Shown here in pieces: positions 7,865-36,944 of a stretch of DNA of 36,944 nucleotides. Within the stretch, counting starts at the first letter, position 1; each line of letters begins with the position of its first letter. This DNA comes from Bacilli bacterium (lineage in GTDB: Bacteria > Bacillota_I > Bacilli_A > RF39 > UBA660), in NCBI GenBank assembly GCA_017553685.1, contig JAFZKH010000009.1, positions 1-36,944 of the forward strand. Reading direction: 5' to 3'. Under the pieces are notes generated by a model. The model was given only the letters and a program-made list of their open reading frames with translations, was not told the DNA's origin and ran no database searches. Both the position numbers and the translations under genes were made by a program.

Positions 7865-10672
7865 CTACCTACCATTATATCTTAATGCAAATGCAAACCC
7901 TTTTTTATTTAAGCTTTGTGTTAAAGAATGTTGAATACTAGTTCCTCCAGTATTATATGTTTTACCATTTCCAGCATATATTTCTACATGTCCAGGATGA
8001 TATGTTTTTCCACCAGCTTTAACAGCAGGTTTATTAGATCTATTTTCAAAAATTACATCACCTGGTTGTAAATCTTTAGTTTTGGTAATAACTGTCCATC
8101 CTTTAGCAACTAAAAATTTAGCCATACTATTAGCAGAGTTAATATTACGTACTGCACTACCACCTGCTACATGGTTAACTTCATAAGCAGTATATATGCC
8201 TGAATCATATAAAGAAAAACTTACTAATGATGCACAAGAATATCCACCAACATATTTTCCATATTTTTGTTTATTACCATATAAGTTTTCAACAGTTTTA
8301 GTAGTACATGCAGGATTAACTACTTTTTTCTTTGTACATTTTCCTTTTTTGTTCTTTTGAACACATTTTGTTCTCTTAGAACACCAGAAAGTTTTACTTC
8401 CAGATTTACTTGTTAATTTTTTAAGTTTTTTAGCAGAATTTGCTAAAGCAGTTCTTTTTGCTTTTATTTCAGACTCAGTTAATACAGGTGTTTCAAGTTC
8501 TGTTATTACTACAAATGGAGATTCTTCCTCCTCTTCTTCCTCTTCCTCTATATCATCATCATCTAAATCATTATTGTTATCTAAATCAACAGTAGTATCA
8601 TCTTCAAGTTCATCTACTTTAACATTTATTGTTACAACATCATATGTGTTTTCATCTAATGTTGCTATTATATTAATGGTATTATCTCCATCAGTTATTT
8701 CATTAAATCCTTCACCAGAAATAACATCTACACCATCAGTTACAGTTTCAGTATCTATTTCTAAGTTACTAGTTCCATTTGGTACTTCAATATCTATTAC
8801 TTTATCAGTTGCATCATAATCAAGCTGTTTGCCATTAATAGTTACACTCTTAATTAAGTTTGGAGATTCTTTACTAGTAGTATCTGTTTCAACAGTTTTA
8901 ACTAATGTTGAAGTATTATTACTACTGTTACTCTTAGTATCAACAGTTGTAGTTTTTGTTGTAGTATTTGTTGATGAACTCTTATCTACTTTTTGATGAA
9001 TATCAGTTCCATTACCTACTACTACACATTTTAAATAAGTCATATTCTTAACAGAACTATTCTTAGATAATGTATTAATTAATATATGAATTAATATAGG
9101 AGTTATTATTAATAGTATTAATGCTATTAATCTTCTAAATAATTTTGATCTAAATTTAGATACTTTTTTAGGATCTCCACTCATAATAGATCTTATTAAA
9201 TCAAATGTTACAAATAACATAGTAAGAATAGGAGCAGTTATAGTAATTGCCCTATATATAATATGAAATGCATTTAAATTATCACACTCAATTTGTGCTT
9301 CTTTATTATCTCTTTCATCATAGAAATCAGGTACACCATTATAACCACTATGAGTTATATTTTTACAATACTCAGTTTTGACTTTATTTCCATCTTTATC
9401 TTGTGTTTCTATAGTTTTACATTGTTTATATGTAACATCTAATGCAGATTTCTTACATTGTGTCCAATCCCATTCAGTTAATTCAAATTCACAACCTAGC
9501 TTTTTCTTTGTCCAAACAGTAGTATTATACATTGGATGAACTCCAGGTAAAAAAGTATATCTATAGCAGTGATAATTTCCATCTTTACTATCACCAGTAT
9601 AACATGATTTAAGTGCATTAGTTTTTGACATTCCCATTAATAGTAGTCTTGCAAAATCATCTTTTCCTTCTTCTCTATTTTCATCTTCTATAGTATTATC
9701 TATTACTGTTGAATCTAAACCTGATTCAGCAGCAAGTCCTGAACATGTTTGAGAATCAGTTATTAAATTACCACTACTATCTACTAGGAAATAAACATTA
9801 CTCTGATTTCCACTATATGCAATTTTATCTAATTCTTCAAAAGTAATTGTACTATCATCAGCATATGGAAATCCGTCTATTACAATTTTTCCTTCTTCTG
9901 CATCACCACGTCTACTTGGAGAACTAGTTATACTAACACCACTAAAATTAATAATTGCTTTTTTATCAGAATCGAATTCTTTTACTAAAGTATTATATGT
10001 GGAATCATCTTTATCTCCTGCACCTCTATAGTCAACAATAAACATTGGATAACCATAGTAAACTGCTAAAGGATATGCAGAATCTTGTCTATACATTGTA
10101 GCAGCATAGCAAAATTGTGTATCATCTTTAAAATCACTATATATATCATTTTTTATTGTCTGCATTTCAGAATCTGTATAGAATTCAGAATTACTTTTAG
10201 CCTCTACAAATAATATTTGATTATGATATTTTCCACTACCAGTACTTGATGTTATCATAGATGCAGCTATACAGTCTTCCATTGTTGAAAAATACTTATT
10301 TGACTCAGATATTTTTGAACTCCAATTTGAATAAGAATGATATACTGTTTTTTTAATCTCAGAATCACTAAGACTAATTAACGTTTTATTAAAATCAAAG
10401 AAACAGTTTGGACTATCTAAAAACGCATCTTTATTATTATATATACTATCAAAACATCTAGGAGTAGGTTTATCAGTTGAATAACCAGCATACATTCTAT
10501 ATGAATAGTAAGGATCATATGAATTAGCACCTTCACTATCATTTGCTAGTAAATAGCAATAATATCCATCTTTAGATTCACTTAATTTTATACTATCTGT
10601 TTTAATAGCACTAACACCTATTGGCAATAAAACTACTAAACAAAGTAATAAATACTTGAATTTCTTCTTCAT
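7865..10672 (-). CDS. Large surface protein: Cys-rich ectodomain, two-TM pilin-like module, cadherin-like sandwich, NlpC/P60 hydrolase
   Basis: About 935 residues from ATG 10672, preceded by AGGGTGAT; the in-frame GTG at 10681 lies inside that SD. Order: signal peptide (about 1-22, ending VSA); N-terminal Cys-containing ectodomain (23-340); Cys-rich module (about 350-465) shared with the next upstream gene; two TM helices (about 471-494 and 514-535) around a basic loop SGDPKKVSKFRSKLFRR; Thr/Ser linker; cadherin-like beta-sandwich (about 605-687); Asp/Glu run (about 696-717); basic Cys-rich segment; C-terminal NlpC/P60-type papain-like domain with Cys813 (GGYSCASL) and His895 (PGHVEIYAG). Both ends should face outside. 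It probably cleaves peptidoglycan peptides, though DCSG is altered to SCAS. The TM pair resembles VirB2/TrbC-type pilin segments. Confidence 0.85.
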   Translation of the reverse strand: MKKKFKYLLLCLVVLLPIGVSAIKTDSIKLSESKDGYYCYLLANDSEGANSYDPYYSYRMYAGYSTDKPTPRCFDSIYNNKDAFLDSPNCFFDFNKTLISLSDSEIKKTVYHSYSNWSSKISESNKYFSTMEDCIAASMITSSTGSGKYHNQILFVEAKSNSEFYTDSEMQTIKNDIYSDFKDDTQFCYAATMYRQDSAYPLAVYYGYPMFIVDYRGAGDKDDSTYNTLVKEFDSDKKAIINFSGVSITSSPSRRGDAEEGKIVIDGFPYADDSTITFEELDKIAYSGNQSNVYFLVDSSGNLITDSQTCSGLAAESGLDSTVIDNTIEDENREEGKDDFARLLLMGMSKTNALKSCYTGDSKDGNYHCYRYTFLPGVHPMYNTTVWTKKKLGCEFELTEWDWTQCKKSALDVTYKQCKTIETQDKDGNKVKTEYCKNITHSGYNGVPDFYDERDNKEAQIECDNLNAFHIIYRAITITAPILTMLFVTFDLIRSIMSGDPKKVSKFRSKLFRRLIALILLIITPILIHILINTLSKNSSVKNMTYLKCVVVGNGTDIHQKVDKSSSTNTTTKTTTVDTKSNSSNNTSTLVKTVETDTTSKESPNLIKSVTINGKQLDYDATDKVIDIEVPNGTSNLEIDTETVTDGVDVISGEGFNEITDGDNTINIIATLDENTYDVVTINVKVDELEDDTTVDLDNNNDLDDDDIEEEEEEEEESPFVVITELETPVLTESEIKAKRTALANSAKKLKKLTSKSGSKTFWCSKRTKCVQKNKKGKCTKKKVVNPACTTKTVENLYGNKQKYGKYVGGYSCASLVSFSLYDSGIYTAYEVNHVAGGSAVRNINSANSMAKFLVAKGWTVITKTKDLQPGDVIFENRSNKPAVKAGGKTYHPGHVEIYAGNGKTYNTGGTSIQHSLTQSLNKKGFAFALRYNGR

Positions 10673-10744
10673 TAGTATCACCCTATTTTAATTATATAAT
10701 ATTTCGTATAAAAATAACACTATTCTTTTATTTTATTTACAAAA

Positions 10745-10774
10745 GAAAAAACTTTAGTATTTTACTAAAGTTTT
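10745..10774 (-). terminator. Intrinsic terminator after the C39-like gene
   Basis: Minus strand AAAACTTTAGTA-AAA-TACTAAAGTTTT followed by a T-rich tract. The twelve-base stem includes the end of the coding region. Confidence 0.8.
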
Positions 10775-12491
10775 ATTTTATTACCGAAGCATAATTATAT
10801 CCTTTTTTAGAACAAGGATGATTAGAAATAATTATACCGTTACCATTTATTTTTCTACTAGTACTTGTAATTGGTTTAAGTAAGCCGGTCCAACTATCTA
10901 GTATTAGAAAGTCCTTGTAAGAAGTTCCTGTTGAACCCTCTTTAAATCCAACTACTGTTACAAAGTGTCTCGAATATGTACCTTTAGGCGCAGAGCATTT
11001 CTTATTACCACCTTTACATCCAGTAACATTAATAATTACAGGATGTCCACTTCTTACATTTTTAATAACGTATTGAACAAAACTTGATTCATCTTTAAAA
11101 CACTTACCACCATATCCAAATGAAGTAGAACAACCATTTGAAGAATTATTACATTTACCTTTACCTTTTGAAATATTCGCAGTAGTAACGTCTTTCCCTT
11201 TATATAATCCACATGCTTGAAGAGTAGATATACCTCCACAACAACCACCTGGATTACTTATATTAGAATATTGTTTTTTATGACTATCTAAATAATCTTG
11301 ATAAATATGATTCTTATGAATCATTTTTTGATATCCTACTACTCCACCAGGATATTTTGTATCTACAACAACATAGTTTTTTCCACTATATTTAATAACC
11401 TTTGATCCTTTAGCTTTTCCATACGTTTTTGTAGATGTTGTTGTCTTTGTATTGGTATTTGTTTTTGTGGTTGTATTTGTTTTAGTTTCTACTTTCTTTT
11501 CTCTTGTTACTTTTAAAGTAATAGTATCATAATTAATATTATCCGCTGTAGCAACAATTTTAATAGTATTACTTCCTTCTTTTAATTCTTGAGTTCCTGT
11601 ACCTGAAATAATTTGAGCATTATCAGAATTAAGTGTTGCAGTAACATCTATACTAGTTTTAGAATTTGGAACAGTAATAGTATAAGACTTAGTAGTAGTC
11701 TTAAATCCAGATACTTCTACTCCATCTACTTTTACACTTGTAATTAATCTTGGTTTTTCTATTTCTTTTGGTTGTAAAGTAACTGTAGGATCTGTCTTAA
11801 CTGTATCAGTATCATTATAACCAAGTACTACACATTTAAGCATTTTAGAATCTTTAATAACATTATTTTTTGATAATGTATTAACAAGCAAATGAATTAA
11901 TATTGGAAGAACTATTAATACTAATAATGCTATTATTCTTCTTAATAATTTAGATCTAAATTTCGATACTTTTTTAGCATCTCCAGAAACAATAGATCTT
12001 ACTAAATCAAATGTTACAAATAATATTGTTAATATAGGAGCCATTATAGTTATTGCTCTATATAGAATATGAAACGATTTTAAATTATCACACATAATAT
12101 CTTTATCTTTACTTACTCTTTTATCATAGAAATCAGGAGTACCATTATAACCACTATGTGATATATTTCTACAATACTTATCTTTACATTGTTCATATGT
12201 AATATCTAATGCTGCACTCTTACAAGATTCATAATCCCAATCAGTTAATTCAAAACCACATCCCATAGTTTTACTTGTCCATACTGTTGTATTATACATA
12301 GGAGTAGTTATACCTGGTGAAAAAGTATATCTATAACAATGATATGCATCTGAGTCTCCTGTTACACAAGCATCTATAGCCTCTGATTTAGTCATTTTAT
12401 TTGTTAATTTTCCAAAATCATCTTCTGCACTAACCCCAATAGGTATTAATATCAAAACAAATAATATTAAATACTTTATTATTCTTTTCAT
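10773..12491 (-). CDS. Surface protein: Cys-rich module, two-TM pilin-like segment, cadherin-like sandwich, C39-like cysteine peptidase
   Basis: About 572 residues from ATG 12491 (SD AGGTGAT; the upstream in-frame GTG 12500 is inside the SD). Order: signal peptide (1-22); Cys-rich module (about 30-135) with CYRYTF, MYNTTVW and HSGYNG in common with the downstream paralogue; two TM helices (about 147-167 and 185-205) with basic loop; cadherin-like beta-sandwich (about 250-330); Thr/Lys linker; C-terminal papain-like domain resembling peptidase C39 family 2, with a Cys pair in GGCCGGIS (about 417-418), His509 (SRHFVTVVGF) and Asp532 (LILDSWTG). It probably cleaves proteins or peptides outside the membrane. 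Same architecture as its neighbour but a different enzyme at the C-terminus. Confidence 0.83.
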   Translation of the reverse strand: MKRIIKYLILFVLILIPIGVSAEDDFGKLTNKMTKSEAIDACVTGDSDAYHCYRYTFSPGITTPMYNTTVWTSKTMGCGFELTDWDYESCKSAALDITYEQCKDKYCRNISHSGYNGTPDFYDKRVSKDKDIMCDNLKSFHILYRAITIMAPILTILFVTFDLVRSIVSGDAKKVSKFRSKLLRRIIALLVLIVLPILIHLLVNTLSKNNVIKDSKMLKCVVLGYNDTDTVKTDPTVTLQPKEIEKPRLITSVKVDGVEVSGFKTTTKSYTITVPNSKTSIDVTATLNSDNAQIISGTGTQELKEGSNTIKIVATADNINYDTITLKVTREKKVETKTNTTTKTNTNTKTTTSTKTYGKAKGSKVIKYSGKNYVVVDTKYPGGVVGYQKMIHKNHIYQDYLDSHKKQYSNISNPGGCCGGISTLQACGLYKGKDVTTANISKGKGKCNNSSNGCSTSFGYGGKCFKDESSFVQYVIKNVRSGHPVIINVTGCKGGNKKCSAPKGTYSRHFVTVVGFKEGSTGTSYKDFLILDSWTGLLKPITSTSRKINGNGIIISNHPCSKKGYNYASVIK

Positions 12492-12557
12492 TAGTATCAC
12501 CTATTATAATTATATATTAATATTATAATAAATAAAATAAGTTTTTTATTAGTATAC

Positions 12558-29801: not shown

Positions 29802-29830
29802 AAATAAAAAGATGTATTTCTACATCTTTT
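29802..29830 (-). terminator. Intrinsic terminator after ftsK
   Basis: Minus strand AAAAGATGTA-GAAA-TACATCTTTT followed by a T-rich tract; ten-base stem with a GNRA-type GAAA loop. It overlaps the ftsK stop codon. Confidence 0.85.
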
Positions 29831-32048
29831 ATTCTTCATCTAATTCTACTAAGACTTCTCTAGGTTTAGATCCTTGACCAGGTCCTACTATTCCTCTTTC
29901 TTCCATCTTATCAATAAGATTAGCTGCTCTATTATAACCAATTTTAAATCTTCTTTGAAGAAGTGATGCTGATGCTTTTTTAGTCTTACAGACGAACTCA
30001 ACAGCATCATTATATAAAGGGTCATCATTATCTACATCATTTTTGTTTGATGATGCACTTTCTGATACTTTATCTAAATTGAATTTTTCATCATATACTG
30101 CAGAATGACCATCACAACAATAATTTACTAATCTTTCTACTTCTTTATCATCTATAAATGCACCTTGAATTCTTTGTGGAACACTTTCACCCATTGGTAA
30201 AAATAACATATCCCCTTTACCAAGTAATTTTTCTGCACCACCCATATCTAGGATAGTTCTTGAATCTATTTGAGAAGATACCGCAAATGATATTCTAGAC
30301 GGAATATTAGCTTTAACTAAACCTGTAATAACATCTGTTGAAGGTCTTTGAGTAGCTACTATTAAGTGAATACCAGCTGCTCTAGCCATTTGAGTAATTC
30401 TAACTATTGAATCTTCTACTTCTTTTTTAGCAACAACCATAAGATCTGCTAACTCATCTATTATTACAACTATATATGGAAGTAATGGATATTTAGATTC
30501 ATCTGCCATTTTTTTATTTTTGTTTTCAAGCATAGCATTATATGCTTCTATGTTTCTTACTTTAGCATCTTCAAATTTTCTATATCTTTCTTCCATTTCT
30601 TCAACTATTTTTTGAAGTGCAGCCGACGCTTTTCTTGGATCAGTTACAACTGGCATAAGTAAATGAGGAAGACCATTATATCCAGAAAATTCTACTTTCT
30701 TTGGATCTATCATTACCATTTTAACTTCATCTGGTTTAGCTCTCATAAGTATTGAACCAATAATACAGTTTACACATACTGATTTACCAGAACCAGTAGC
30801 ACCTGCTACTAATAAGTGAGGAGTTTTATTAATCTCACAATATCTTGGAGTACCCATAATATCTTTACCTAAGGCTACTACTAATTTATTACTATCCTTT
30901 TCATGAGGAAATGAATCAATGATTTCTCTAAATGGTACTGCAGAATTAACTTTATTTGGTATTTCTATACCAACAGTACTCTTTCCTGGAATTGGAGCTT
31001 CAATTCTAACATCTTTTGCAGCCATAGCTAATGCTATTTCAGATGATAAACCTTTTACTTTATTCATCTTAGTTCCAGATTTAATTTCTAATTCATATTG
31101 AGTTACAGATGGTCCTACATGAACTTCTCTTACCTTTGCTATTACCTCGAATTCTCTAAGTACTTTTTCTAGTTGAGGAATATTTTTCTTAATTTCTATT
31201 TCATTTTCTTTTGCTTTATCTTTTGCTGACTTAATAGGATTTAAAACCTTATCAATATTATGATAAATTGGTGGTTCATAATTCTTATATAATTGTGTAT
31301 TAACAGTTGGAGTATAAACTTTATTTTCTACTTCACCCTTCTTATCATTACTATTAGTTAAAGATATTTTAACTTTTGATGCCTCTAAATCATCAATTTC
31401 TCCTTCTTGATATCCATCATCATCTTCTTCATCATCACCATCTGGTATACCATTACCATCTTTATCTTTACTACCAAATTTTTCTTTTATTGTATAAATT
31501 ATATCTGATATAGAAATATCTGTTATTAAAATAGCTCCTATAAAGATAATAATACATATAACTATAATAGAACCTATATGTCCACAGTATTTATTAAATA
31601 AAGCAGAGAATAATGTTCCAATCATTCCTCCACCAGAAAAAGCAGTTTCCTCTGTCATAGCTATTTTAAATGTTTCCCAAGCACTAATTAATTCTTCTTT
31701 AATAGTTAACTTTTCTGTTAAATGTTCTAAATTAAAGAAAGCTAGTACCCCAATAGAAACTAAATATATACCACATTTAGTAAATGTAAATACCTTTGGA
31801 AACTTATTCTTTATAAATATATATCCACCTAAAAGAATTAGTACTACTAGAGGAACATAATAAAATGATCCTGCTATAAGCATACCAAATCCTTTACAAA
31901 ACTTACCTACTATATTTGCTCTATAACCTAATAAACCAAATACACCAATAGCCATAAATAAGAAACCTAATACATAAAACATTAGATTACTATTTTTTCT
32001 ATGTCTTCTTCTATGTGTAACTTTTCTAGGTCTTCCTCTCTTTGCCAT
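29829..32048 (-). CDS. ftsK: DNA translocase FtsK/SpoIIIE
   Basis: About 739 residues from ATG 32048 (SD GAGGTG; an in-frame ATG at 32063 precedes it and is less likely). Pumps DNA during chromosome segregation and septation. N-terminal four-TM membrane domain (about 20-180); an acidic linker with KDKDGNGIPDGDDEEDDD (about 195-212); alpha domain; RecA-like motor with Walker A GATGSGKS (416-423) and Walker B VVIIDELADLMV; C-terminal winged-helix gamma domain (about 670-735) for sequence-guided direction, ending PREVLVELDEE. Stands alone between two terminators. Confidence 0.97.
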   Translation of the reverse strand: MAKRGRPRKVTHRRRHRKNSNLMFYVLGFLFMAIGVFGLLGYRANIVGKFCKGFGMLIAGSFYYVPLVVLILLGGYIFIKNKFPKVFTFTKCGIYLVSIGVLAFFNLEHLTEKLTIKEELISAWETFKIAMTEETAFSGGGMIGTLFSALFNKYCGHIGSIIVICIIIFIGAILITDISISDIIYTIKEKFGSKDKDGNGIPDGDDEEDDDGYQEGEIDDLEASKVKISLTNSNDKKGEVENKVYTPTVNTQLYKNYEPPIYHNIDKVLNPIKSAKDKAKENEIEIKKNIPQLEKVLREFEVIAKVREVHVGPSVTQYELEIKSGTKMNKVKGLSSEIALAMAAKDVRIEAPIPGKSTVGIEIPNKVNSAVPFREIIDSFPHEKDSNKLVVALGKDIMGTPRYCEINKTPHLLVAGATGSGKSVCVNCIIGSILMRAKPDEVKMVMIDPKKVEFSGYNGLPHLLMPVVTDPRKASAALQKIVEEMEERYRKFEDAKVRNIEAYNAMLENKNKKMADESKYPLLPYIVVIIDELADLMVVAKKEVEDSIVRITQMARAAGIHLIVATQRPSTDVITGLVKANIPSRISFAVSSQIDSRTILDMGGAEKLLGKGDMLFLPMGESVPQRIQGAFIDDKEVERLVNYCCDGHSAVYDEKFNLDKVSESASSNKNDVDNDDPLYNDAVEFVCKTKKASASLLQRRFKIGYNRAANLIDKMEERGIVGPGQGSKPREVLVELDEE

Positions 32049-32073
32049 ATAAGCACCTCGCATTATTACCTTT

Positions 32074-32114: not shown

Positions 32115-33761
32115 TTATATTTCATTTATTAATGTAATAACCATTGGTTTACATTCAGTTTCATTATAGAAGAATGTTCCAAGAACATCTCTTAAATCAG
32201 TTTTAATCTTACTATAATCTACATAATTATTAGATATATTCTTATTAATTATTTCAGATGACATATCTTTTATTTGATTAATAAAATCAATATTATCTTT
32301 TACATAAATAAATCCTCTAGTTAATATTTCTGGTCCTGCTAAAACTTTTCTTGTTTTCTTATCAAGTGTAGCACATACTATAACAATACCATTTTCACTA
32401 AGCATTTCTCTATCTTTTAAAACAAGCTCTCCAATATCTTTAGTAGAATTACCATCTATTAATAACTCATTTATAGATACTTTTTCTGTTTCATCAGTTA
32501 AATTACCATTTTCAAATATAGCTACATAACCATTTTGTTTTAAAATAATATTTTCTCTTGGAATATCCATACTAAATGCAATATCTGCATTAGAAACCAT
32601 ATGTCTATATTCACCTGCTACTGGAAAATAATATTTTGGATTCATTAAATTAATCATTAATTTAATATCTTCAATTGATGCATGATTAAGTAAATGCTCT
32701 TTTGGTGATAGATATACTACTTTTGAACCAAGTTTTGCTATTTCATCACATAGTTTAATAGCTATTCTTTCGTTATTAACAGACACTGGATCTAAATAAA
32801 ATACTGTATCTGTAGGTAATATTTTAATATATTTATCATAACCATTTACTATTCTTTCTAAGTTTACAAATGGTTTTTCATTTTCATTAGATATAAGTAT
32901 TACAGCATCTTTATCAGATATGTTATTAAGTGTTCCTATTCTATCTTTATTAAATGTTACATATCCATTATCAATTACATAATTAATTAATTGTTGTAAT
33001 CTTTTACCCATTATAACTACTCTTCTTTGAGTAGATTCTATTTCTGTTAATAATTCTTGAATTCTACTTATATGTGCAGAAAATACTGTTACTATAATTC
33101 TACCTTCATTATGATTAAGTACATCTCTTACAGTATCAGACATTCTATTCTTTGGTACTGTATATCCAGGTCTATCTGCATATACAGATTCATTTAATAA
33201 ACAAAGTACTCCTTGTTTACCAATATAAGCAAGTTTACCAATATCTGTTCTATAATTACCTTGTAAACTTGAATCAAATACATAGTTACCTGTATAAACA
33301 ATAGCACCATCTTCAGTATTTAAAACATAACCAACATTATCTGGAATTGAGTGAGTTAAACTAACTGGAAATACACTATTCTTTCCAAAGTTAATTACTT
33401 TATGAGGTTCTATTTCATGTAAGTTATTAAACTTAATGTCTGCATCCTCTAATTCTCTTCTTATAATGTCACATGTGAATTTGCATGAATAAACATCAAT
33501 ATCTTTTACTTCAGTAATTATATCTACTAAAGCTCCCATATTTTCATCATGACCATGTGTAATAAAGATACCTTTAATATTCTTTTTGTTTTGTTTAATA
33601 AAATCATAATCTGGAATAATATAGTCTACTCCAAGCATCTTTTCATTAGCATATTTTAAACCCGCATCAAATATAAATATATCGTTGTTAACATCTACAA
33701 CATACATATTTTTCCCGTTTTCATTTAGTCCTCCGAGACTAAATATTTTAATTTTGCTCAT
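32115..33761 (-). CDS. rnjB: RNase J2-like metallo-beta-lactamase/beta-CASP protein with substituted active site
   Basis: 548 residues, normal length and architecture for RNase J: beta-lactamase part, beta-CASP insertion and C-terminal domain (DGNSTKDIGELVLKDREML... GPEILTRGFIYV). RNase J1 is a 5'-exonuclease/endonuclease in mRNA decay. Here the metal-binding motif HxHxDH reads HGHDEN (69-74). The GDFKFD-type Asp is Asn159 (TGNY), the beta-CASP segment before HVSGH is altered (NHASIED), and the final His ligand of HGEYR is Ala382 (VAGEYR). His69, His71 and His137 remain. This pattern resembles but exceeds RNase J2, the poorly active partner of J1. Probably a structural subunit. Good SD and own promoter. 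Confidence 0.88.
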   Translation of the reverse strand: MSKIKIFSLGGLNENGKNMYVVDVNNDIFIFDAGLKYANEKMLGVDYIIPDYDFIKQNKKNIKGIFITHGHDENMGALVDIITEVKDIDVYSCKFTCDIIRRELEDADIKFNNLHEIEPHKVINFGKNSVFPVSLTHSIPDNVGYVLNTEDGAIVYTGNYVFDSSLQGNYRTDIGKLAYIGKQGVLCLLNESVYADRPGYTVPKNRMSDTVRDVLNHNEGRIIVTVFSAHISRIQELLTEIESTQRRVVIMGKRLQQLINYVIDNGYVTFNKDRIGTLNNISDKDAVILISNENEKPFVNLERIVNGYDKYIKILPTDTVFYLDPVSVNNERIAIKLCDEIAKLGSKVVYLSPKEHLLNHASIEDIKLMINLMNPKYYFPVAGEYRHMVSNADIAFSMDIPRENIILKQNGYVAIFENGNLTDETEKVSINELLIDGNSTKDIGELVLKDREMLSENGIVIVCATLDKKTRKVLAGPEILTRGFIYVKDNIDFINQIKDMSSEIINKNISNNYVDYSKIKTDLRDVLGTFFYNETECKPMVITLINEI

Positions 33762-33841: not shown

Positions 33842-33868
33842 CTAAAAAAACTAACTAGTATTAGTTTT
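33842..33868 (-). terminator. Terminator after the hybrid histidine kinase gene
   Basis: Minus strand AAACTAA-TACTAG-TTAGTTT followed by T-run. Seven-base AT-rich stem that includes the stop codon. Confidence 0.6.
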
Positions 33869-35678
33869 TGAATATCTTAGTTAGTTTCTCTTTTATTTCA
33901 TCTTTAGTAAATGGTTTTGCTATATAATCATCAAAACCAATAGATAAATATTTTTCTTTAGCACCAGATACTGCATCTGCAGTTAAAGCTATTACAGGAA
34001 TATTATATCCTCTTTCTTTCATAGTAATTAAACATTTATCACCACTTACTTCAGGCATCATGATATCCATTAATACTAGATCATAATTATTAGTGCTAAT
34101 CATATCTAATGCTTCTTTAGCACTATGAGCACATTCTGAACTAATTTCTAAGAATGTTAATGCTTTTTGTGCTACTTTTATGTTTAATTTATTATCATCT
34201 ACTATTAATACTTTCTTACCCTTAAATAAGTCATTATCAGGTACAGTTAATACTTCCTCTACTGTATCAGGTTCCATCTTACTAATTCTTTGAGGTATTT
34301 CTACCATAAATATAGAACCTTCTCCTAGATTACTTCTAACACTAATTTTACCTTTCATAGCATCTACTAATTTCTTAGTAACAGAAAGTCCAACTGTATC
34401 ACTATCTACTTTTCCATCTTCTTTTATAGATGCATTAAATAGTTTTTCTTGTTCTTCTTTAGAGATACCTATACCTGTATCAGATACCATTATAATAAGG
34501 TTACATATATCGTTAGTATTAGTATATTTAACAGTTAATTTTATTTCACCTTGATTAGTATATTTAAATGCATTACTAAGTAAATTATTAACTATTTCTT
34601 TAACATTTACTCTGTCCCCAATTAACTCATATGGAAGCCCTTGTTGGAATTCAATATTAAATTTAATTGGTTTACCATTTATCTTAGTAGCATTTAATTT
34701 ACATAGCTTAATTATTTCTTCTTTAAATAAGTATGGTGTTTCTACAAGATTAATATTAGAATTTTCTATCTTATTAATATCTAAAATATTATCTACTACT
34801 TCTAATAATGATGTAGAAGCATCTACTAAATCTTTTGCATCTTCTTTAACACCTTGAGGAAGTACATCAGAATAACTTCTAATATCTTCTGATAAACCTA
34901 CTATAGAGTTTAAAGGAGTTCTAATTTCATGAGACATAGAATTTAAAAATTCTGATTTAGCGTTATTAGCTTTCTCAGCTTCTTCTTTTGCTTTTTTTAA
35001 TTCTTCTACCATTTTCATATCAGGATTCTCTATTGTAAAATACATAAGAGTAATTACTAATGTTTCAAATGGAGCAATAAGTAAATAAGTAGGATTAATC
35101 ATTTGAGATATTATACCTGCAGCAGATAAAATTACATATGCAAATAAAGGTAAATATTTTGATGATTTAACTCTCTTATAGTTTCTAAATAAACAATATA
35201 TCATGAATACTGTTCCAACAAGCATACCAATAAACATCACAAAGAATGATGCTCCTGTTGGATAATAATATCCATTAATAATTTCTATATCCATCGGTGC
35301 AAAAAACATAACTACTGCTACTATTCCAGATATTATTAAATATGCAATAGTTTGTCTTCTTTTAAAACTTATATTTTCTTTAGTATTAACATCAAATGAT
35401 ATAGCCCATACATATAATCCAAATATTATTTCAAATGCAAAATATACTAAGAATAATACTTTTAAAATATATATGTATATTGGACTTTCAGAGAAATCTG
35501 GAAAGTATAATCCTACATAATATATTGCAAGTTGTGAAAGTAATCCTACTAAGTTAGTAATAAGTAAAGCAGTAAATAAAGAGTTTTCTACTTTTCTTTG
35601 TTTAGGCTTAGTGAAAAAGACTATCATTATGATAATCAAAAATATTAATGCACATATCGCAATAATAGTACTTTCCAT
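33861..35678 (-). CDS. Membrane hybrid histidine kinase with receiver domain
   Basis: 605 residues. About seven TM helices at the N-terminus (roughly 4-22, 33-56, 68-92, 108-128, 144-164, 175-195, 198-215) without a large outer domain, so the signal is probably sensed in or at the membrane. Then a short coiled coil, HisKA with His250 ([10 protein letters not shown]), and HATPase with N box [12 protein letters not shown]1 VSDTGIGI, and G2 as [12 protein letters not shown] (canonical GLGL-type Gly partly lost). The C-terminal receiver (485-605) has the acidic pair (VDDN), Asp538 (LMDIMMP), Thr566 and Lys588. No output domain, so phosphate must pass on elsewhere. Follows ezrA by 27 bases. Confidence 0.9.
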
Positions 35679-35705: not shown

Positions 35706-36944
35706 CTATTCTTTTTCATCAAATACTTTTAATAATTTATTATGTATACCAGGTTCAATATATTCTATTGAGTTTAAAGTAAGTTCAAGTGATTTTTTAT
35801 ATTCCCCTTCCATAAATAAACTTTCAGCTTTATCTAAACCTTGATCTACTGTTTGTTTAATACCTCTATATCTATTACCATAAACCATAGTTTCTTCTGC
35901 CATCATAACAGACTTTATTAAACCATTAACAGTATTATATACTTTGAATGCTAAGTCTCTAGCAGTATCTACTCTGATATTTAATACCTCTATAGTAATA
36001 GGTTTTCTATTTAATTCTTTATTTATTTCTTTAATTGCATCATTAGCATCATTTAATTCAACATAATAGTTATTAGGTATAACAGGTATGTTATAACATC
36101 TAATTCTATTCTTAGTTTTCTTAATTAATTTCTTAATATTATCTAATTGTTCTCTAGCTCTTGCTTCATCATCTTTCATACTACCAATAGTATGTACATC
36201 ATAATCTAGATTTTCATCTATCTTAGATAATTTAATAATAAGTAAATCTAATTCCTTAATTAACTTAGTATATGGGAATGTATGATTCTTACTATAATCA
36301 GTTAATTCATTATAACTATTTTTAATATTAGTTACTTCTTTATCAATTATTTCAATTCTTTCTATATTTTCATTAGATAGTTCATAATTAGTTTTAAGTT
36401 CATTAATTTGAGATTTAATATTCTTAACAACTTTATCTGTTTTAGTAAGTTTAGTCTTAAATGATTTCATATTAGAATCAAATTTCTTTTTAGACATTTT
36501 CTCATTTTCAAAATCAGTATAAAGTGAATCAAAATAATTAAGAATTGTTTTAAGTTCAAAGACTACATCTTCTAAGTTAAGAACTTTAACTCTATCAGTA
36601 ATATCTTTTAATTTTTTATTAGTTTCCTCAATATTATATTCAACATTTAAATAATCTAGTTGATACATATTTCTAGTCATTTCTATATATAAATTAGATA
36701 TATCAGAAATCTTATTTGGAATTAATTCATTACACATAATTATGATAGCAGGTATTTCTTTAACAACATAATCAGCATGTTCAATCATTTCATCTATACC
36801 CTTAACTATATAGTTAATCTCATCATAATCTTTTTCATCCATAGCAATCTCAAATTCAGAAAATCTTTTTTCAATACTTTCAAATTCAAGATCTATTTGA
36901 TTTGTAACAGAGCCATATGTTTCTTTATTCTTTTCATATTCTGC
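35706..36944 (-). CDS. ezrA: Septation ring formation regulator EzrA (C-terminal part, 5' end outside window)
   Basis: The reading frame stays open to the window edge, so the Met at 36842 is internal and at least 412 residues are seen of a normal length near 565. EzrA is anchored to the membrane and organises the FtsZ ring through spectrin-like triple-helix repeats. The visible part is almost all coiled coil, with the repeat-specific segment EIPAIIIMCNELIPNKISDISNLY. The C-terminal hallmark is VYGNRYRGIKQTVDQGLDKAESLF followed by EYKKSLELTLNSIEYIEPG, which matches EzrA. The N-terminal TM is beyond the edge. Cotranscription with the histidine kinase is likely. Confidence 0.92.
   Translation of the reverse strand, partial: AEYEKNKETYGSVTNQIDLEFESIEKRFSEFEIAMDEKDYDEINYIVKGIDEMIEHADYVVKEIPAIIIMCNELIPNKISDISNLYIEMTRNMYQLDYLNVEYNIEETNKKLKDITDRVKVLNLEDVVFELKTILNYFDSLYTDFENEKMSKKKFDSNMKSFKTKLTKTDKVVKNIKSQINELKTNYELSNENIERIEIIDKEVTNIKNSYNELTDYSKNHTFPYTKLIKELDLLIIKLSKIDENLDYDVHTIGSMKDDEARAREQLDNIKKLIKKTKNRIRCYNIPVIPNNYYVELNDANDAIKEINKELNRKPITIEVLNIRVDTARDLAFKVYNTVNGLIKSVMMAEETMVYGNRYRGIKQTVDQGLDKAESLFMEGEYKKSLELTLNSIEYIEPGIHNKLLKVFDEKE

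Follow-up and report, generated by a model that had tools for sequence, protein, structure and literature searches.

The locus considered here raises the question of what a full-length RNase J homologue does once most of its metal ligands have been replaced. The purpose of RNase J2 is itself disputed, the active site being dispensable in S. aureus, needed in E. faecalis and that of a one-metal endonuclease in S. epidermidis, as far as the excerpts of the reports cited below extend. The gene was found in a window of 36,944 nucleotides (contig JAFZKH010000009.1), and its product is an RNase J2, a known kind of protein, from an uncultured gut Bacilli lineage.

Gene, fold and metal ligands

The open reading frame starts with ATG, contains no internal stops and predicts a protein of 548 residues (Table 1); the initial annotation was silent on its minus-strand orientation. 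The predicted protein scores 449.5 bits against TIGR00649 (cut-off 400), and Pfam RNase_J_C, RNase_J_b_CASP and RMMBL all match above their gathering scores. The MBL, beta-CASP and C-terminal domains of the RNase J family are therefore present at full length, which bears out the earlier reading that length, order and C-terminal domain are intact. The closest solved structures by sequence are chains of S. epidermidis J2. An AlphaFold2 model built from 31 input sequences (the window's own and those of 30 loci) is of moderate confidence, with a mean pLDDT of 81.7, a pTM of 0.73 and low values at residues 433-456. It matches RNase J structures, the top match being chain A of 9a5v (E 3.4e-56), an RNJ2-RNJ1 integrative model that we take to be of the B. 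subtilis complex.

Table 1. Features of the RNase J2 locus, with positions in the window and the basis of each assignment.
Feature	Position	Strand	Basis or remark
RNase J2 gene, rnjB-like	32115..33761	-	548 aa + stop; domains, profile score, J2 clade in both trees
HxHxDH motif H69-G-H71-D-E73-N74	33540..33557	-	H69, H71 retained (site 2); D78 to E73, H79 to N74 (site 1)
H137 (J1 H142), site 2 ligand, retained	33351..33353	-	Alignment and family conservation
N159 (J1 D164, ligand common to both metals), Asp to Asn	33285..33287	-	Alignment; family D 91, N 67, H 4, S 1 (n=163)
H360 (J1 H368, catalytic/phosphate-binding loop), retained, invariant in family f1	32682..32684	-	Conservation; role from excerpts of PMC7864078
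A382 (J1 H390, site 1), His to Ala	32616..32618	-	Alignment
C-terminal domain, RNase_J_C, residues 447-548	32118..32423	-	Pfam; more constrained than the J1 domain in family f1
ftsK/spoIIIE-type translocase gene	29829..32063	-	Directly downstream of J2; context, not part of the function

In B. subtilis J1, one zinc is bound by H74, H76, H142 and D164 (referred to here as site 2) and the other zinc by D78, H79, D164 and H390 (site 1), according to excerpts of PMC5383250. Alignment to B. subtilis J1 places H74, H76, D78, H79, H142, D164 and H390 at H69, H71, E73, N74, H137, N159 and A382 of the window protein, respectively. Four of the seven ligands are replaced, conservatively only at E73, and all four are ligands of site 1, the Asp shared by both metals having become Asn. 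The three histidines that serve site 2 alone are retained. As the ligand string is HHENHNA in place of HHDHHDH, with fewer than the seven ligands of J1, the protein was not classed as a canonical RNase J or J1. Two-metal catalysis is predicted to be lost.

The loop equivalent to HxSGH reads H356-L-L-N-H360, in which His360 corresponds to J1 His368 and Leu replaces J1 Ser366. In S. epidermidis J1, S366A and H368A reduce activity but H364A does not (excerpts of PMC7864078). The motif and residues picked out in the initial annotation (HGHDEN, Asn159 and Ala382) all agree with the alignment. Its description of the HVSGH segment as remodelled holds for the change of Ser366 to Leu, but both histidines of the loop remain. 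Ligands that are shifted but intact, which it had named as the finding that would overturn its reading, were not found in the alignment, where the motifs of the window protein line up with the reference motifs. Three relatives, 94, 93 and 88% identical to the window protein, match it at every ligand position but 382, which is Ser, and this recurrence rules out sequencing error as the source of the changes.

The J1 partner, the J2 clade and gene order

Exactly two RNase J genes pass the family cut-off in the genome that includes the window (950,311 bases, completeness 94.68), namely the window J2 and L002, whose products are 32% identical. L002 retains all seven ligands and is thus the canonical rnjA for which the initial annotation had proposed a search; a lone RNase J is rejected, and the window protein is a second RNase J beside a canonical J1. 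L002 adjoins a frame for a putative polynucleotide phosphorylase. RNase Y is also present in this genome (700.7 bits).

The nearest named records of the window J2 come from uncultured Bacilli and Firmicutes MAGs, the best being a sheep-rumen MAG (94% identity), and more distant named relatives include Candidatus Onthousia. Within the window's family, designated f1, J2 was detected at E <= 1e-120 in 178 of 193 genomes, the other 15 having no such match, and in 131 of the 140 with a completeness of 90% or more and a contamination of 5% or less. The J2 sampled from this search (30 as loci and 60 by region) are a subset of the places found. In a draw across the whole class, one or more RNase J were detected in 197 of 198 genomes and exactly two in 184 (hand count), and hence an RNase J pair is the rule. 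Four genomes of family f11 (G222, G233, G244 and G252) gave three RNase J matches instead of two; two of the extra copies, L215 and L220, have all seven ligands intact and make up a separate basal branch of the J1 clade in the FastTree tree.

The phylum-wide search gave genomes of the same class alone, and the sole named J2 in the alignments is that of S. epidermidis, B. subtilis J2 being absent from them. In a FastTree tree of 220 rows, 46 seven-ligand RNase J group in one clade, adjoined by S. epidermidis J2, and the remaining rows lie on the opposite side, the f1 J2 making up a single clade of 125 rows. Ligand invariance in those J1 (46/46) is circular in that they were selected by ligand pattern, and was used since the same 46 form one clade. 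A quick IQ-TREE tree of 82 rows recovered the same J1/J2 split and placed the J2 of families f4 and f15 together (support 99), nested in a set that also contains the f1 J2. The 20 J1 from f4 and f15 in this set were chosen by position and similarity to B. subtilis J1, not by ligands. The window protein groups with J2, in a supported split from the J1 clade, in both trees. Both trees put S. epidermidis J2 at a point intermediate between J1 and J2, and orthology with staphylococcal J2 therefore rests on the partner and the ligand pattern, not on the branch.

Adjacency to ftsK/spoIIIE, treated as a non-strict mark of J2, is seen in the window. The gene lies beside J2 in 11 of 80 named loci, which were assigned to f1 by 58-94% identity and not by family code, and in 2 of 30 further sampled loci. 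It was also found in 18 of 78 other loci, among which the J1 locus and that of the window are counted; short flanks can miss the conserved FtsK part in such counts. It stands directly after J2 in most loci from the same genus, and in f6, f8, f11 and two of the f7 loci it is on the same strand. This shared order supports one ancestral J2 gene, and rnjB presumably adjoins spoIIIE in B. subtilis and S. aureus as well; for J2 orthology, gene order with ftsK is limited support.

On the other side of J2, a hybrid histidine kinase with a receiver domain is encoded at 33861-35678 (minus strand), between RNase J2 and an EzrA-like gene; such a kinase is immediately upstream of J2 in 3 of the 80 and 4 of the 78 loci. 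The EzrA-like gene (35706-36842, minus strand) predicts 378 aa that match positions 185-553 of the 557 in the EzrA profile, and the interval separating it from the next gene revealed no frame for the N-terminal part that it lacks. Elsewhere in the window, a 938-aa protein encoded at 7865-10681 (minus strand) has no Pfam match at E 0.001 and adjoins a C39-peptidase-like and Cadherin-like protein at 10773-12500.

Constraint on the two metal sites and stages of site loss

Removal of duplicates reduced 300 rows to 258, comprising 46 J1, 163 f1-type J2 and 49 other J2, S. epidermidis J2 among them. In the f1-type J2, the equivalents of H74 and H76 are His in all 162 lettered rows (one gap) and that of H142 in 163/163. 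The D78 column holds E 70, S 42, G 27, K 16, Q 5, A 1 and N 1, and the H79 column N 97, Q 33, H 13, Y 7, A 6, S 4, V 1 and E 1. D164 is retained or replaced as listed in Table 1, and His is found at the H390 position in none. The window protein, with degenerate site-1 ligands and retained site-2 histidines, has the same pattern.

Changes were counted as the parsimony minimum on a FastTree tree of 162 distinct f1 J2 built with the ligand columns omitted, and the counts are approximate. The equivalents of H74, H76, H142 and H368 (the last being H360) show none, compared with 28 at D78, 18 at H79, 4 at D164 and 30 at H390. The median column has 21.5 changes and 48 of 548 columns have none, so that the ligands serving site 1 alone have change counts close to that of the median column. 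Four site-1 positions are replaced in 60 of these J2, three in 100 and two in 2. Site 1 thus appears to be drifting beside a site 2 under strict selection. Pairing of positions 164 and 390, with Asp accompanied by Lys or Arg in 86/162 and Asn by a neutral residue in 66/162, resembled a salt bridge replacing metal 1; as it rests on 2 changes at 164, 6 at 390 and only 1 independent pair on supported branches, no such bridge is claimed.

Different degrees of loss were seen among 238 J2 rows from the class (S. epidermidis J2, two duplicates and one J1-type row were left out). H390 alone is lost in 16, and at least two site-1 ligands are lost with the site-2 trio retained in 195. The trio is partly lost in 6, reduced to 0 or 1 of its 3 His in 20, and falls in a gap in 1. 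One J2 row, L210, retains His at 390. The 20 trio-less proteins are all the rows examined from f4 (13; L303-L315) and f15 (7; L325-L331); they are full-length and have no site-2 His, except for one of three in L327 and L330. Nearly all of them require TGA to be read as Trp, and the catalytic-loop His is also lost in the f15 J2 and part of the f4 J2. All 20 J1 fetched from these two families have seven of seven ligands and an HTSGH loop. As the trio has gone from 20/20 of these J2 at RNase J length, the fold does not require it, and the f4 and f15 sequences speak against a purely structural reason for its retention in f1. They may themselves be pure scaffolds that partner an intact J1.

Constraint has also shifted between domains. 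Over 22 paired f1 genomes, the ratio of change in J2 to change in J1 is 1.50 for the N-terminal MBL part, 1.73 for beta-CASP, 1.04 for the C-terminal MBL part and 0.81 for the C-terminal domain, and the contrast between core and C-terminal domain was reached by 0 of 5000 column shuffles. In f1 J2, constraint has eased on the nuclease core and risen on the C-terminal domain, a pattern to be expected of a protein kept for its part in assembly, and this fits a role as partner of J1. The contrast is weaker in 17 paired genomes from other families (1.19, 1.27, 1.01 and 1.05; reached by 77/5000) and absent from 19 of f4 and f15 (1.61, 1.50, 1.46 and 1.44; 969/5000).

The relatives of the window J2 show unusually clearly how stepwise decay may turn a nuclease into a partner subunit. 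A single path for the whole class is put forward tentatively, as a scheme for which doubt slightly outweighs belief. H390 would be lost first and then the rest of site 1, followed in the families reading TGA as Trp by the trio and often the loop His, with J1 keeping all seven ligands. Family f1 would be held mid-stage, with an invariant one-metal half-site, a fast-changing core and a C-terminal domain under tighter constraint than its J1 counterpart, as a nuclease becoming an obligate partner subunit. No report of a class-wide survey of stages, of ligand-free J2 in TGA=Trp lineages or of constraint moving to the C-terminal domain was met in the open-licence PMC literature, as far as its excerpts (PMC4014445 included) extend, which is weak evidence of novelty.

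Function and comparison with known RNase J2

The window J2 is probably the non-canonical half of a J1-J2 complex, with site 1 lost, site 2 and His360 under selection, and what remains amounting at most to weak (endo)nuclease activity with one metal or to a site that holds RNA. Its C-terminal domain and surface would pair with the intact J1, and J1 would perform the two-metal 5'-3' exonuclease reaction. Since site 2 (three His and Asp/Asn159) and His360 are retained by selection, the pocket probably still holds one metal and binds RNA phosphate. We infer the complex with J1 from relatives, and the partner role is the best-supported main function. Against a half-site, Asn at 159 is a poorer metal ligand than Asp or than Glu166 of S. 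epidermidis J2.

The initial annotation had suggested that catalysis is lost and that the protein is a pure scaffold for J1. Partnership with J1 and a broken two-metal site are both supported, but invariance of the site-2 trio and H360 in 162/162 f1 J2 tells against "pure" and against complete loss, as does the need of E. faecalis J2 for H69 and H71 (excerpts of PMC5383250). A protein that has no catalytic metal and only holds J1, its histidines being a remnant or serving the fold, is accordingly an unlikely reading, although four of seven ligands are replaced, the C-terminal domain of J2 is more constrained than that of J1 in f1, and J2 of f4 and f15 lack the three histidines. It also draws on S. 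aureus, where Ala in place of both first histidines of J2 leaves growth as in wild type even though deletion of J2 is harmful (excerpts of PMC3937233), which argues by analogy that even retained histidines can be dispensable. This reading would leave unexplained why site-2 histidines and H368 never change over 162 f1 J2 while ligands serving site 1 alone change like the median column, and a need of the fold for the trio is countered by the f4 and f15 proteins. In E. faecalis J2, moreover, H69A and H71A abolish activity whereas D73A does not, and the site-2 histidine equivalents are required for one phenotype; binding to J1 persists in the inactive mutants, at KD values of 81 and 89 nM against 74 nM for wild type (excerpts of PMC5383250).

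Much less probable is an active one-metal endoribonuclease with its own substrates that works independently of J1. S. epidermidis J2 is mostly monomeric and has endonuclease activity, though it also pulls down J1 (excerpts of PMC7864078), and the invariance of site 2 and H360 in f1 would suit such an enzyme. However, the amount of change in beta-CASP and the N-terminal MBL part, 1.5-1.7 times that of their J1 counterparts, would not be expected of an enzyme that has essential substrates to itself, and S366, important in J1, is Leu in the window J2.

NG86 dN/dS between the window J2 and its three close relatives is 0.079, 0.084 and 0.174; eight J2 pairs gave 0.071-0.174 and six same-genus J1 pairs 0.056-0.102. 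A pseudogene is rejected on these values, in keeping with the earlier view that the protein is under selection and not decaying. A decaying gene heading for loss can be practically dismissed, short of a very recent event, for although more ligands are changed in the window J2 than in some relatives, dN/dS is low, J2 is found in most f1 genomes as given above, and the listed rows are all free of internal stops.

The class offers a natural comparison between lineages in which the half-site is strictly selected and lineages in which the site has gone beside an intact J1. If J1 activity were raised even by ligand-free J2, partnership would prove separable from the chemistry of J2.

Reports on J2 of S. 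epidermidis, E. faecalis, S. aureus and S. mutans make clear that loss of site-1 ligands in J2 is already known. In excerpts of these, the main 5' exonuclease of S. aureus is suggested to be a complex of J1 and J2 (PMC3937233), and S. mutans J2, which is closer to consensus, is active and has J1 as its strongest partner (PMC6759994). J2 of S. epidermidis and S. aureus (6k6w) resembles the window J2 as a full-length paralogue beside a canonical J1 with the site-2 histidines retained. S. epidermidis J2 (∼34% identity) is replaced at the same four site-1 positions, by D78H, H79A, D164E and H389/390Q (excerpts of PMC7864078), giving His, Ala, Glu and Gln where the window J2 has Glu, Asn, Asn and Ala, and the S. 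aureus motif is HGHEHA (excerpts of PMC3937233). The window J2 is therefore not a stronger form of the Bacilli pattern, and the contrary suggestion in the initial annotation, that J2 of Bacilli is milder, is true for some lineages only, such as the 16/238 rows that have lost H390 alone. The 5'-phosphate loop is SSH in S. epidermidis J2 and LNH in the window J2. Activity and metal were measured for the former, with one Mn at His-76, 78, 80 and 144 and Glu-166 (excerpts of PMC7864078). E. faecalis J2 is likewise a J1 paralogue and has histidines at the same numbers, 69 and 71, but residue 73 is Asp where the window J2 has Glu, and its function was shown with mutants (excerpts of PMC5383250).

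L002 and B. subtilis J1 (3zq4) share the three-part architecture and length of the window J2, but have seven of seven ligands and the HxSGH loop compared with three of seven. A more distant fold match to the model is INTS9-INTS11 (8r22; TM-score about 0.5), which belongs to another family and serves as an analogy only. There, a beta-CASP nuclease is paired with an inactive paralogue, an arrangement like that proposed for J1-J2.
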